Shown in pieces: positions 30,884 to 36,358 of a stretch of 64,000 nt of DNA. The DNA is taken from the NCBI RefSeq assembly GCF_000022485.1, contig NC_012623.1, positions 1,240,001 to 1,304,000 of the forward strand. Reading direction: 5' to 3'. The DNA is from Sulfolobus islandicus Y.N.15.51. GTDB taxonomy: Archaea > Thermoproteota > Thermoprotei_A > Sulfolobales > Sulfolobaceae. Below the pieces are notes generated by a model. The model saw only the letters and a program-made list of their open reading frames with translations, did not search any database and was not told the DNA's origin. Numbering within the stretch: position 1 is the stretch's first letter; each line of letters begins with the position of its first letter. The translations under genes and the position numbers were made by a program.

Positions 30884-31491
30884 GGTTTAAATTCCCTCAC
30901 CTTCAAATTATTATCTGAACTAAGCCCACACAACTTAGAAGCATTTTTTAAAGTTTTATTCCTATATCTACTAATACATGAAATTAAACTATCAACATCG
31001 TCATTATATTCTCTTACCCTATTAAAAACTGTAATAATTGAATAGACTTTTGGACGAGGACTGAAACATCTTGGTGGAATTATGTCTTTAGTCTGTATAT
31101 CAAACACATAATTAAGCAAAAAAGAAATATATGTAGGATCATTAAGAATCTTATCCACAAAATCCTTTTGCAAAATCAGTATAAGCTTACTTATATTGTC
31201 AAGTTTAACTACCTCCTTGAAAAAATCTGAAGTTATCTGGTAAGGTAGAGAAGAAACTAATTGACCCCTTAGTATTGGCAAATATCTTGCATCTGCTATT
31301 ACAAGATTATAATTTTTCAAATAGTCTGTCATTTTCTCATCTAATTCAATACAAATATCCGGTTCTAAAAATTTAGTAATATTTCCTTTTCCACATCCAA
31401 TCTCTAAAATAGGTCTGATTCCAGTATCCACGTATGAAATAAACTTTTCTATAAAACTCTTATCAATAAGAAAAACTTGTGAAAGCCTTAC
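30835..31491 (-). CDS. ksgA: rRNA adenine dimethylase KsgA/Dim1 with no canonical start codon
   Basis: 218 residues if read from GTA at 31491. The enzyme dimethylates two adenines near the 3' end of 16S rRNA. SAM motif LEIGCGKGNITKF, ADARYLPI, LVSSLPYQIT (NLPY equivalent) and PPRCFSPRPKVYS are present. The conserved N-terminal text VRLSQVFLIDKSFIEKFISY lies upstream of the first ATG/GTG/TTG in frame (GTG 31431). Above it the frame is open only to a TGA four codons before GTA. The GTA overlaps the TAA stop of DUF655 (AAGTAAGG), where one A-to-G change would create the common GTGA overlap. Confidence 0.85.
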   Translation of the reverse strand, partial: VRLSQVFLIDKSFIEKFISYVDTGIRPILEIGCGKGNITKFLEPDICIELDEKMTDYLKNYNLVIADARYLPILRGQLVSSLPYQITSDFFKEVVKLDNISKLILILQKDFVDKILNDPTYISFLLNYVFDIQTKDIIPPRCFSPRPKVYSIITVFNRVREYNDDVDSLISCISRYRNKTLKNASKLCGLSSDNNLKVREFKPWQVLELLNSVDLSYV

Positions 31492-32114
31492 TTTAGCTTT
31501 TCAATATAACCCACGTAAATGAATTGCTGTTCTAATCTTTTATTTTCATCTGATACAAGAGGATATACAAACAGATAGTATTTCTCTCCACCTTGCATCT
31601 CCTTTATTATCCTCTCTACTAGTATTGAAGCCACATCCTTAATGCCTATACGCGTCTCTATATCTTTAAAACTCTCAAAGGGTTTTTTCTTTCTTTCCTC
31701 CAGAATTATTCTTAAAGTCTTTTTACCAATGTTTGGCAATAACTCCAACGCATGAAGCTTTAACGTTAATGGCTCAGCCTTGTTAAAAATCTCCACGAAG
31801 ACTTTTTCTTTCTCTAAAACTATTTTATGCAAGATCTTAGGCAAATTATCTTTAGATACTGATGTAAGATCCTCGTAAGAAATATGAGCATCTACCTTAA
31901 CACTGGAATTTGAGTCCAATTCAATCTTATCCTCGGGAAAGAAATCCAAATTATAAGATAGGGGAGTGAGTTCAAGCAATAAGAAGTAATCCTCACCTAC
32001 AGCTTGAATAAGAGGCCTATCCCTGTGAAACTTATGCCTATCTAATGGATTACCTTCCCTCATATAATCTAAAACATACACTACTCGCTCCTTTACTACC
32101 CTTTTTCTTTGCAA
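31488..32114 (-). CDS. DUF655 protein with OB-like and helix-hairpin-helix regions
   Basis: A 208-residue protein. The first half (VVYVLDYMREGNPLDRHKFHRDRPLIQAVGEDYFLLLELTP) suits an OB-fold, and residues about 125-185 (ALELLPNIGKKTLRIILEERKKKPFESFKDIETRIGI) are helix-hairpin-helix. It is an archaeal nucleic-acid-binding protein of unknown role, always near RpoF, KsgA and L21e. The start is TTG at 32114. Confidence 0.82.
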   Translation of the reverse strand: MQRKRVVKERVVYVLDYMREGNPLDRHKFHRDRPLIQAVGEDYFLLLELTPLSYNLDFFPEDKIELDSNSSVKVDAHISYEDLTSVSKDNLPKILHKIVLEKEKVFVEIFNKAEPLTLKLHALELLPNIGKKTLRIILEERKKKPFESFKDIETRIGIKDVASILVERIIKEMQGGEKYYLFVYPLVSDENKRLEQQFIYVGYIEKLK

Positions 32115-32155
32115 TTCTACTTCCCTAAGTAGTAATAGATTCTAAAAGTAAAAAC

Positions 32156-32497
32156 TCAACTCTTAATGTATTTCCTAATTATATCAATTATTTTTTGTAT
32201 GTCCTCAGAAGTATATGTCCTATTACTGTCCATTATCAAAATACTCCTTACCTCGTCAGGTGTAATAGGGCAAATACTAGCTAAAACCGCTCTAACATCT
32301 TCCCTACTTATGATACTGCTTAACTCTTCAACAACCTTCTGTGCGGACTCAGCATCGCATTTCTCTACACTATTTAAATAATCATAAGTCCTTTGTAATA
32401 AATTAGATGAACTCCCAGATTTAATTACATCACTTAGTAATTTTTTTGCCACTGAGTAAGGAATATAGTGCTCCTCAACTATGTATACAGATGACAA
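32156..32497 (-). CDS. rpoF: RNA polymerase subunit F (Rpo4)
   Basis: A 113-residue Rpo4, partner of Rpo7 in the stalk that binds nascent RNA and TFE. Text [21 protein letters not shown], the [26 protein letters not shown] block and [41 protein letters not shown] match the HRDC-like archaeal family. It is 7 bases downstream of L21e. Confidence 0.94.
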
Positions 32498-32504
32498 ATA
32501 CTAA

Positions 32505-32810
32505 TCACCCACTAGAACTAAAAGAAACCAAATGTTCAGGCCTAACAATTATTACCTTTTCCTTATCGCCCAATGTGACCGAAACTAAATATGCCCTACC
32601 TCTTTTTCCAATAATTTTCCCTACTTTACCTTGATACCGTCTATGAGGCATACCGGAATGTACTGATGGGTTTATCTTTATTACGACCTTATCTCCTTCC
32701 TTATATTCAACCATTAGTCTGCTTAGAGATGGAACTGCACCCCTCTCTCTAGGACTCTTTCTTAATAAACTCCTTGATCTAGTTCGATAACCCCTCGAAT
32801 GTTTAACCAT
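32505..32810 (-). CDS. rpl21e: 50S ribosomal protein L21e
   Basis: A 101-residue L21e. It starts MVKHSRGYRTRSRSLLRKSPRERGAVPSLSRLMVEYKEGDKVVIKINPSVHSGMPHRRYQGKVGKI, which is the full family signature with an SH3-like barrel. It opens the L21e-RpoF-DUF655-KsgA-HemK operon. Confidence 0.96.
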   Translation of the reverse strand: MVKHSRGYRTRSRSLLRKSPRERGAVPSLSRLMVEYKEGDKVVIKINPSVHSGMPHRRYQGKVGKIIGKRGRAYLVSVTLGDKEKVIIVRPEHLVSFSSSG

Positions 32811-32899
32811 AATATTCCCTCTTACTCATTATATGCCACATAATTAAGATTTTTGTTGGAAAAACATATAAGGTAAAACTGAACTCAGTATAATAGATT

Positions 32900-32999
32900 G
32901 CGGGGGTGCCCGAGCCTGGTCAAAGGGGGCGGACTTAAGACCCCCAAGTAAGAGATCCGCTGGCGAAGGCCTGCACGGGTTCGAATCCCGTCCCCCGCA
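32900..32999 (+). tRNA. tRNA-Leu (TAA) with a short anticodon-loop intron
   Basis: GCGGGGG acceptor paired with CCCCCGC, discriminator A, long variable arm of class II, T-arm ACGGGTTCGAATCCCGT. The anticodon stem GCGGA/TCCGC encloses CTTAAGA once a stretch of about 15 bases (ACCCCCAAGTAAGAG) at the canonical 37/38 site is removed. CCA is not encoded. Confidence 0.93.
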
Positions 33000-33053
33000 T
33001 AATAACTCTATTCGTTCAATTTTTGGAAAAAGAGGAAATTAATACTACAAAAA

Positions 33054-34328
33054 TTAACACGAGATCTCATAATTTGACAAGTAATTCGTGGCCTCTTGTA
33101 GTAAATAACCCTTTAACTCGTTGGGACTCCAATCTGGATTTACAAGTGGTAAAACGCCATTCAGATAATCCCTTACCATTTGCTCATACATTGTCTTCTG
33201 ATTCCTAGTTAAACCGGGATAAGCTTCAATGCAGTTATTTATCGTAGATAAAACCTCATTATACACGTTTTTTAATTCCATAGCCCTCTCCTCAACTTGC
33301 CTATAACCATTTTCATAAGACACTTCAGACCAATCAATGGCAAGTGCAGCCAACTCAGCAATGGCTATTGGAAAAACTGCAGAAATCCCAGCAATAGTCT
33401 TTTTCTCCTTATTAATGGCATCTATTATCATGTTAAATCCCTCGCTTATATTCAGCTCCTTAGTGTAATTTGCGATACCAGCTTTAGTGAAATCAGTGGG
33501 AGACTTAACAACGTCCAAAAAGACGAATTCAACTGGATATTGCAAATTATTACCAAGTGGCACATTAATAGTTATTGTCGAGAAGGATTTGATTAGTCCC
33601 ACTAATCCAAATTCTGAACAATATGTCGCACAGAAGTGTCTACTGAACACTGGAGCACCAATATCAATATCATTAAACTTGAAATCGAGATTAAACGGTT
33701 GAAATACAGTTCCTACTGCAATTCTTGTACAATACTCACTAGGCATGATTTGGTTACAATTATTTAAGACCACATCTATTGGACCATTAACCGTAACTGC
33801 AGGATAATTTGATAAACCTACCCCACTAGCTACTTGCTTAAATAAGGCCAAAGCCAGATAGATGAAAGGATATTGATCAGAAGTAGTACGAAGTTCATCA
33901 GACCTCTCTCCTCCTAACGAACTCCCTATGAGAGTTTTTGAAACATAATAACTACAACCACTACCGGGATAGATTAAATCATCTATACTTCTTGGAGAAG
34001 AAAGCGTTATTTCTGATGCTAAACTTGCGATTGCAACTACTGAAACAACACCTATTGTAGTTATGTAATCCCAAATTGCACCAAGTAGACCTTGGCAAGA
34101 TTTAAACCTAGCTGGATTATACCATTTAATCTGTGCTGATACCCTTTTTAACGGTATAATTCCAATTCCTCCATTACTTATAAAAATATCCCTAGCCTTA
34201 GCAGGCAATTTTACTGAACCCCTAAACGCCGCACCACCTTGATATACTGCAATATTACTACCACCTACCCACACTGGTGATATTCCTCCAATGTAATAGT
34301 ATTCTCCAGTATCCTCAGTCTTAATCAA
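33054..34328 (-). CDS. Unrecognised 424-residue protein, possibly membrane or surface associated
   Basis: I do not recognise this protein. It starts with TTG that overlaps the stop of the small gene upstream (TTGA), so it is probably translationally coupled. Two hydrophobic stretches stand out: about 88-105 (YITTIGVVSVVAIASLA) and about 312-334 (AGISAVFPIAIAELAALAIDW). There are eight cysteines, including CATYC, and many Asn/Gly/Ser-rich beta-like segments, as in exported or viral structural proteins. No signal peptide is evident. Codon use is host-like. It lies between two tRNA-Leu genes with no integrase nearby. A cargo islet or host surface factor are the options. Confidence 0.6.
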   Translation of the reverse strand: MIKTEDTGEYYYIGGISPVWVGGSNIAVYQGGAAFRGSVKLPAKARDIFISNGGIGIIPLKRVSAQIKWYNPARFKSCQGLLGAIWDYITTIGVVSVVAIASLASEITLSSPRSIDDLIYPGSGCSYYVSKTLIGSSLGGERSDELRTTSDQYPFIYLALALFKQVASGVGLSNYPAVTVNGPIDVVLNNCNQIMPSEYCTRIAVGTVFQPFNLDFKFNDIDIGAPVFSRHFCATYCSEFGLVGLIKSFSTITINVPLGNNLQYPVEFVFLDVVKSPTDFTKAGIANYTKELNISEGFNMIIDAINKEKKTIAGISAVFPIAIAELAALAIDWSEVSYENGYRQVEERAMELKNVYNEVLSTINNCIEAYPGLTRNQKTMYEQMVRDYLNGVLPLVNPDWSPNELKGYLLQEATNYLSNYEISC

Positions 34329-34441
34329 AATACCTTGTGTCTAAAAATCTTAGTTTTCAATTCATAAGCACTTGAACTGTTTGACACGGCAACAGCTGAT
34401 ATTCCTTCAGCAACAGCTATGGCAGGATAAATCTCATACAT
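34325..34441 (-). CDS. Small 38-residue peptide upstream of the 424-residue protein
   Basis: ATG at 34439-34441 opens MYEIYPAIAVAEGISAVAVS then NSSSAYELKTKIFRHKVF and stop. Residues 5-20 are hydrophobic and small-residue rich, the rest is basic. It starts 7 bases after the stop of the 51-residue gene and its TGA overlaps the TTG of the 424-residue gene. The precise ATG/TTG-stop couplings support it being translated. No homolog is known to me. Confidence 0.45.
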   Translation of the reverse strand: MYEIYPAIAVAEGISAVAVSNSSSAYELKTKIFRHKVF

Positions 34442-34448
34442 CTTTTTG

Positions 34449-34604
34449 TTACCCCTCTATTTTATATTTATAATACTCTTTCAGTGAAATCATCTCACAC
34501 TGCTGCTGTGCTATGTCTAATGAAGCACCTATTGCTCCAATAATCCCACATATTGTACTTAAGATTGAACTTAGAGATATTTCGGCCGCAGTTCCTACAG
34601 CCAT
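34449..34604 (-). CDS. Small 51-residue hydrophobic peptide, first gene of the cluster
   Basis: MAVGTAAEISLSSILSTICG then IIGAIGASLDIAQQQCEMIS and LKEYYKYKIEG. Residues 9-31 are a glycine/alanine/isoleucine-rich membrane-type helix with one cysteine, resembling small membrane or pilin-like peptides. An AT-rich TATA-like element sits about 26 bases before the ATG, the spacing of a leaderless archaeal transcript. It is followed by two tightly coupled genes. Function unknown. Confidence 0.5.
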   Translation of the reverse strand: MAVGTAAEISLSSILSTICGIIGAIGASLDIAQQQCEMISLKEYYKYKIEG

Positions 34605-34624
34605 ATGAAATTTAACTGGTTAGT

Positions 34625-34637
34625 GTTTAAATATTTT
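34625..34637 (-). promoter_or_regulatory. TATA-like element for the 51/38/424-residue cluster
   Basis: Minus-strand AAATATTTAAACA lies 22-33 bases upstream of the ATG at 34604. That distance matches leaderless transcription from a TATA centre about 26 bases before the start. Sequence evidence only. Confidence 0.45.
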
Positions 34638-34944
34638 TCATAATAATAGGAAGTTGATATGTATACGCATTTATCCATGTAACCATTAAAATCGTGCTTA
34701 AAAGAAAAATGTAATCCTTCTAAAGTTAGGGTCATTCACGCATCCTTTGCGAATTCAGTTTATTTAAAGAATCGTAATGAATTTAATCAAATACCACCCC
34801 ACTGACTAGGTGGAGATCCACGCTCAGTAGTTTACTTTGTTTTATCCATATTATTCATAAATTACAATTCACAAAAGAGACTTGAATCGCCCAAAGTTAT
34901 AATGGTAATAATTTATTACCAAAAACTTCTACTTACTTTAACAT
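34638..34944. other. Gene-free AT-rich spacer before tRNA-Leu (CAG)
   Basis: About 300 bases between the small-gene cluster and tRNA-Leu (CAG). It holds a 46-codon minus-strand frame (34595-34735) without supporting features, a GC-richer island around 34795-34825 containing two CCACC/GGTGG arms, and the tRNA promoter zone. I see no IS end, no C/D motif set and no repeat of neighbouring tRNA sequence. Confidence 0.4.
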
Positions 34945-35029
34945 GCGGGGGTGCCCGAGCTAGGTCGAAGGGGGTAGGCTCAGGCCCTACTGGCGAAGGC
35001 CTTCGCGGGTTCAAATCCCGCCCCCCGCA
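34945..35029 (+). tRNA. tRNA-Leu (CAG)
   Basis: Class II tRNA of 85 bases: acceptor GCGGGGG with CCCCCGC, discriminator A, anticodon stem GTAGG/CCTAC around CTCAGGC, long variable arm. No intron and no encoded CCA. The SAH hydrolase gene follows closely on the same strand. Confidence 0.95.
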
Positions 35030-35104
35030 GTGATAAAATTTGCATACTTGGATAAACAGATAAAAATCCTAAGCTTTTTATGTTCTTTCGATAAAAAACT
35101 TCCG

Positions 35105-36358
35105 ATGAGCTACAAAATAAAAGACCTTTCTCTCGCAAGTGAGGGAAAAAAGCAAATAGAATGGGCAGAAAGACACATGCCAACATTGATGGAAATAAGG
35201 AAGAGATTTGAAGCTGAAAAACCACTAAAAGGTATTAACATATCAGCAGTACTTCACGTTACCAAGGAAACAGCAGCACTAGTTAAAACCCTTAAAATAG
35301 GTGGAGCTAACGTTGCTTTAGCTGGAAGTAATCCCCTTTCAACTCAAGATGATGTAGCAGCAGCCTTAGTAGAGGAAGGAATCTCAGTATTCGCATGGAA
35401 AGGAGAAAATGAGACAGAATATTATTCCAATATTGAAAGTATTGTAAAGATTCACGAGCCAAATATTGTAATGGATGATGGTGCTGATTTACACGCTTAC
35501 ATTCATGAAAAGGTAAGTTCTAAACTTGATATTTATGGCGGAACTGAAGAAACCACAACTGGTGTTATTAGACTTAAGGCAATGGAGAAGGACGGTGTCC
35601 TTAAGTATCCTCTCATCGCAGTAAACAACGCATATACCAAGTACCTTTTCGATAACAGATATGGAACTGGACAAAGTGCCATAGATGGAATACTTAGGGC
35701 TACAAACATTCTAATTGCAGGTAAAATCACAGTTGTAGCTGGATATGGATGGGTAGGTAGGGGAATAGCTAATAGATTAAGAGGAATGGGTGCTAGAGTC
35801 ATAGTAACTGAAGTAGATCCAATAAGAGCGCTTGAAGCAGTAATGGATGGCTTTGACGTTATGCCTATTGCAGAGGCCTCAAAGGTCGGTGACATATTCG
35901 TAACAGCTACTGGAAATACAAAGGCTATAAGAGTAGAGCATATGCTCAATATGAAAGATGGTGCAATCTTATCTAATGCAGGACACTTTAACGTAGAGGT
36001 GGACGTAAAAGGGTTAAAGGAGACTGCAGTTAAGGTAAGAAACATAAGACCTTATGTTGATGAGTATACTTTACCTAACGGTAAGAAAGTGTACTTACTA
36101 GCAGATGGTAGGTTAGTAAATTTAGCTGCAGCAGAGGGTCATCCTAGCGAAGTAATGGATATGAGCTTTGCAAATCAAGCTTTAGCCGTAGAATACCTAG
36201 TTAAGAATAGAGGAAAATTAGAGAAGAAAGTGTATAATATGCCAATGGAATTGGATTACGAAGTGGCTAGAATAAAGTTGAAATCCATGGGTATTCAAAT
36301 TGACGAGTTGACGGAGGAGCAAAAAGAGTACTTGGAACAATGGAAATCAGGGACCTAA
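35105..36358 (+). CDS. ahcY: S-adenosylhomocysteine hydrolase
   Basis: 417 residues from ATG 35105 ([28 protein letters not shown]), NAD-dependent, splitting SAH into adenosine and homocysteine so that methylation can continue. Markers: [26 protein letters not shown], the NAD fold [36 protein letters not shown] and late [25 protein letters not shown]. The frame extends 25 codons further up to the tRNA, but TTTTTATG at about 35076-35083 looks like a TATA box 24 bases before the chosen ATG, implying a leaderless mRNA. Confidence 0.96.

Follow-up and report, generated by a model that had tools for sequence, protein, structure and literature searches.

In archaea, tRNA genes are the usual integration targets of integrases (PMC8371274), and the SSV and pNOB8 elements of the Sulfolobales are tRNA-integrating elements of this kind (PMC8371274). 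These archaea also carry PaREP1, a solo gene family that is multi-copy and restricted in lineage. At the protein level, the trypsin-like fold of the HtrA/DegS-type proteases (PA clan) can be repurposed for non-catalytic work, as in MamO of magnetotactic bacteria (PMC4794232).

Here we analyse a locus that bears comparison with each of these systems, located in the window, i.e. the whole 64,000-nucleotide stretch of Sulfolobus islandicus Y.N.15.51 DNA under study. In our best explanation, to which we assign a probability of about 0.8, positions 33054-34604 hold a recent pseudogene that belongs to a multi-copy pseudoprotease family confined to Sulfolobaceae, whose members are solo accessory genes beside stable-RNA genes. 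The lesions, orthology, family, range and RNA-gene proximity in this reading are drawn from sequence comparison.

The interval between two tRNA-Leu genes

The sequence-only reading had described this interval as a promoter followed by small membrane peptides and a large protein, encoded by a cluster of three genes between two tRNA-Leu genes. The features of the locus are as follows.

33054-34604, minus strand: one broken gene (pseudogene); ancestral ORF of about 516 codons, now 51 + 38 + 424, joined in one frame in the orthologues at the same site (L002 and L003)
34604-34449, minus strand: 51-codon ORF; N-terminal piece with a hydrophobic, Gly/Ala-rich helix region, matching the N termini of intact members
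34441-34325, minus strand: 38-codon ORF
34328-33054, minus strand: 424-codon ORF
34625-34633, minus strand: TATA-like box GTTTAAATA, 21-29 nt 5' of the first (original) ATG, kept in the sister species
34452-34455, minus strand: first lesion, GGGG against GGG in both sisters; the extra G gives a +1 frameshift and ends the 51-codon piece
34337-34340, minus strand: second lesion, ACAC against AC in both sisters; a +2 frameshift that ends the 38-codon piece
32900-32999, plus strand: tRNA-Leu (TAA anticodon), intron-containing, 54 bp from the broken gene (cmscan, anticodon read from the sequence)
34944-35030, plus strand: tRNA-Leu (CAG), 339 bp from the broken gene (ARAGORN)

Much of the earlier description stands. 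Both tRNA-Leu genes are real, the TATA-like box is present and probably functions as a promoter, and the ORFs of 51, 38 and 424 codons are found with 7 bases between the first two and an overlap at TTGA between the last two. The 424-codon ORF also contains the eight cysteines (residues 78, 125, 191, 200, 233, 237, 366 and 424) and the two hydrophobic segments (89-107 and 312-330) that had been ascribed to it. These ORFs are, however, not three genes. Among 41 genomes searched, two congeneric species (G006 and G002) carry this DNA at the corresponding position, again with tRNA-Leu and L21e as neighbours, and in both of them a single frame of about 516 codons spans the two joints. DNA alignment of the window with these sister species reveals exactly two frame-changing differences, namely the two lesions listed above, after the second of which the 424-codon ORF returns to the ancestral frame. 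The start of the 38-codon ORF is an internal ATG of the ancestral frame, and the TTG start of the 424-codon ORF is an internal codon of that frame, GTG in the sisters. Because the sister orthologues pass through both joints in one frame, the interval is by this comparison one broken gene, and the supposed cluster of small membrane peptides and large protein dissolves into pieces of a single young pseudogene.

The copies in the related species are damaged as well. One TCA-to-TAA change interrupts the G006 copy, while the G002 copy has an ATG-to-ATA change at its start together with CAA-to-TAA and TGG-to-TAG changes; in a fourth species (G001), the copy at this tRNA-Leu site has decayed and contains many stops. 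No lesion is common to the three aligned species (window, G006 and G002), and the tRNA-Leu copy appears to be breaking independently in each species of the genus. Sequencing error is an unlikely cause, given that the orthologues in related species carry different lesions at this site. It is hardly credible that the interval holds three genuine genes in co-transcription, or a single gene expressed via programmed frameshifting or translational re-initiation. A promoter-like element is retained and the ORFs abut with the TTGA overlap, but both insertions are absent from the sisters, for which reason frameshifting and re-initiation were rejected. The sisters instead have simple nonsense mutations or have lost the start codon, and dN/dS is near neutral.

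Selection is relaxed on the window copy. The dN/dS is 1.14 between the window and G006 (41.5 nonsynonymous and 10.5 synonymous changes), 0.83 between the window and G002, and 0.49 between G006 and G002. By comparison, intact orthologues elsewhere give 0.31 and 0.36, and the flanking genes, compared between the window and G006, give 0-0.25. Measured against the intact values, the nonsynonymous excess in the window/G006 pair has a P of 6e-5 to 4e-4. With two frameshifts and a dN/dS of 1.14, the locus holds no uninterrupted frame under purifying selection, and it is these two frameshifts, together with a dN/dS of about 1.1 against 0.3-0.4 in intact relatives, that lead us to read the window copy as a young pseudogene.

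The surroundings of the gene differ between species in other respects. About 190 bases between the promoter of the broken gene and tRNA-Leu (CAG), at approximately 34705-34895 of the window, are absent from G006, and no Rfam family matches this extra stretch. Across window positions 31488-36358, dS relative to G002 is 0.06 for the broken gene and 0.15 for AdoHcyase against 0.37-0.52 for L21e, rpoF and DUF655, as if a segment had been exchanged between species. The neighbourhood is rearranged in G003-G005, and the empty sites there are unusable for comparison.

The protein family and its predicted fold

Intact homologues are about 460-600 amino acids long and multi-copy, with up to 17 matches per genome. 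A wider profile finds the family in 17 of the 31 Sulfolobaceae genomes and in none of the 198 other genomes of the class; two marginal matches outside Sulfolobaceae in a phylum sample (E 3e-4 and 8e-4) were taken as noise. No Pfam or NCBIfam model matches, nor is there a significant match in PHROGs. Weak PHROG matches (E 0.03-0.3) and matches to viral fusion proteins in the PDB (E 0.01-0.4) were judged to be chance helix matches. The phages, plasmids and viral contigs searched contain no convincing relative, leaving a capsid or virus origin without support. Back-translation scans of genome contigs likewise gave no confirmed relative, a result that is not read as absence since the genome search finds many. 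From these searches, the family appears to be undescribed, unnamed and restricted to Sulfolobaceae, and accessory rather than household. Its copies are mosaic: those of a cluster in G017 have a common core and exchanged ends, and by block identities the C-terminal tail of the window copy is closest to a different sub-lineage than its core.

AlphaFold (AF2) models were obtained for two intact members, one from G009 and one from G043, with pLDDT of 80 and 90 and pTM of 0.85 and 0.90. In VIA-align, all matches listed are trypsin-like, the best reaching Z of 10.6 and 10.3 over 185-192 residues with rmsd of 3.8-4.2, and DegS is among the best. Foldseek matches are weak (best trypsin-like E-values 0.085 and 0.13). 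The predicted fold is that of the PA clan (trypsin/HtrA), with two six-stranded beta-barrels of the chymotrypsin type. Sequence profiles (Pfam, NCBIfam and a DegQ/DegS profile built from two sequences only) do not place the family within HtrA, and the proposed PA-clan link draws on predicted structure and short motifs. Transferred to the window, the parts of the protein are as follows.

33591-34325, minus strand: predicted PA-clan (trypsin/HtrA-like) beta-barrel part, from motif alignment and homologue fold; limits approximate
34269-34316, minus strand: motif EDTGEYYYIGGISPVW, where active proteases have the catalytic His loop
33645-33671, minus strand: motif DIDIGAPVF, where active proteases have the catalytic Ser loop
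33054-33590, minus strand: predicted C-terminal, mostly helical part, from homologue models; limits approximate

The order of motifs fits that of HtrA, with RQGILIKTTDTGDWFYIGGISP corresponding to the GSGVI...TNNHV region, GLGAIPL to DLAVL, and DIGAPVF...GLAGLI to NSGGALV...GI. In the aligned members, other residues stand where the catalytic His, Asp and Ser would be, an assignment made at the motif level; at that level the His-Asp-Ser triad of an active serine protease appears to be missing. No His is conserved, every alignment column containing at most 16 His in 38 sequences. Judging from the replaced catalytic residues and the lack of a conserved His, the members are probably pseudoproteases, with loss of catalysis indicated at the motif level.

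The family thus resembles HtrA/DegS-type proteases in its predicted double-barrel fold over about 190 residues and in the similar motif order around the barrel. It differs from them in having only about 10% identity, in the replaced His, Asp and Ser, in a long insert between the barrels, in its N- and C-terminal parts and in matching neither Pfam nor NCBIfam models. With MamO, it would have in common a trypsin-like fold, a degenerate active site and a non-catalytic role (PMC4794232). MamO binds metal via a di-histidine motif, whereas no His is conserved in the family, and the organisms and gene setting are unrelated. The intact protein would consist of an N-terminal hydrophobic helix, a trypsin/HtrA-fold domain devoid of the triad and a helical C-terminal part, and most likely binds a partner protein or ligand without cutting.

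The sequence-only reading had found no known family for these ORFs, and the Pfam, NCBIfam and PHROGs searches bear this out. Its picture of a Cys-rich, beta-like protein agrees with the Cys-containing, beta-rich protein found here, and the accessory islet it proposed corresponds to an accessory gene for which the tRNA-side setting is meaningful. The suggested capsid module finds no support, given a trypsin-like predicted fold and no viral or plasmid relative in the collections searched; a toxin or surface role, its other suggestion, is conceivable for the intact family. Among the checks it had recommended, profile searches gave no match, and the models of the two intact homologues gave the trypsin-like fold.

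Position beside stable-RNA genes

A tRNA, rRNA or other stable-RNA gene lies within 2.5 kb in 37 of 39 family regions, and within 1.5 kb in 33, the regions being not fully independent since copies are partly related by ancestry and site. tRNAs of many isotypes serve as neighbours, 16S or 23S rRNA is near in nine regions, and SRP RNA adjoins one copy. For two genomes the tRNA lists are complete; there, a tRNA, rRNA or SRP-RNA gene is found no more than 2.5 kb from each of the 20 family loci, compared with 7 of 69 control loci from the same genomes (pooled Fisher P = 2e-14; PaREP1 2/22, IS605 orfB 2/22, a 95-bp repeat 3/25). The tree contains several deep lineages, all of them sited near stable-RNA genes. 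The exceptions are L064, which is near-identical to L063, and the L070 cluster. In the latter (L070:4358-19780, in G017), five or more family copies recombine with one another amid large duplications, both inverted and direct, and 20 kb of sequence contain no stable-RNA gene. The attachment of the family to stable-RNA genes is strong and its position near-exclusive, which sets it apart from PaREP1 despite the similar multi-copy, solo and lineage-restricted character of the two families.

Stable-RNA spacers could act as a neutral safe harbour, where solo genes persist only because no operon is broken and no targeting takes place. This explanation is possible, if short of probable. It accommodates the observation that the copies stand as solo genes in the spacers that separate RNA genes from conserved genes, with no fixed side or orientation. 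In the same genomes, however, PaREP1, IS605 orfB and the 95-bp repeat are not concentrated there.

Copies have also moved. A recent clade in G042 is found in the spacers of five tRNA genes (tRNA-Gly, -Lys, -Gln, -Pro and -Arg), with its G043 relative at tRNA-Ala, and reciprocal or one-sided empty sites are seen in a relative. The tRNA-Leu/L21e site holds three different lineages in three genera. Duplicated units begin about 72 bp ahead of the start codon and end close to the stop codon, with 99.7% identity over 1471 bp for L063/L064 and 96% over 1505 bp for L085/L086. Inspection of the unit ends by eye revealed no inverted repeat and no short target duplication; gene conversion can also produce such a pattern of duplicated units. 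Several sites show further repeats. At the L086 site, about 60 bp of flank are imperfectly duplicated, and at L085:3290-5530 the family unit is directly bordered at one end by a repeated (IS-like) stretch of about 630 bp and at the other by the 95-bp repeat (about 25 genomic copies). At L067 (1406-1723 and 3281-3601), the 3' half of tRNA-Gln and about 280 bp downstream are duplicated at 85% identity with the family gene outside, which looks like the scar of another integrated element.

Alternatively, elements of the SSV or pNOB8 type could have entered tRNA genes by means of an integrase, the family copies being the one cargo gene left of each. The preference of archaeal integrases for tRNA genes (PMC8371274) is consistent with this idea, as is one family copy (L087:3370-5381) that has a tRNA-Leu gene on one side and, 57 bp after the family gene on the other, 21 bp repeating the 3' end of that tRNA gene exactly, placed as an att repeat would be. 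We regard it as possible but less than likely, because L087 alone among 37 tRNA-copy pairs has a repeat other than a further tRNA gene, several copies adjoin 16S or 23S rRNA, copies lie on either side of the RNA gene, and the ten neighbours scanned include no integrase. The tRNA-side position and the L087 repeat are thus what the family has in common with SSV and pNOB8 (PMC8371274), from which it differs in being a single gene with no integrase found, present also by rRNA and SRP RNA, and with no relative in the phages, plasmids and viral contigs.

Another reading, tentative and rather unlikely, is a single-gene unit encoding a trypsin-fold pseudoprotease and delivered specifically to sites flanking stable-RNA genes by some means other than a known integrase or chance survival. 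Selection of these positions for an action of the protein on or near the neighbouring RNA genes is improbable: the association does cover tRNA, rRNA and SRP RNA and several deep lineages, but side, distance and RNA type are inconsistent, 14 of the 31 Sulfolobaceae genomes have no copy, and the broken copy in the genus shows that the link is dispensable.

Implications for the family

In the preferred reading, that of a recent pseudogene from a pseudoprotease family of solo accessory genes, accessory DNA would spread into spacers beside tRNA, rRNA and SRP-RNA genes in units of one lone gene and its promoter, recombination between copies would reshuffle the family, and loss would be frequent. The route by which copies reach RNA-gene sites is a part of this explanation that we infer.

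What appeared to be a three-gene islet is thereby corrected to one broken gene, and a pseudogene is in itself ordinary. What is new is an undescribed archaeal family in which a predicted protease fold, probably without catalytic activity, goes together with near-exclusive siting next to stable-RNA genes. Directed placement is testable because sister species have empty sites where young copies are found. In yeast and Dictyostelium, retrotransposons target tRNA genes; if placement of the family is directed, it would represent an archaeal gene-spreading route with an outcome comparable to theirs.
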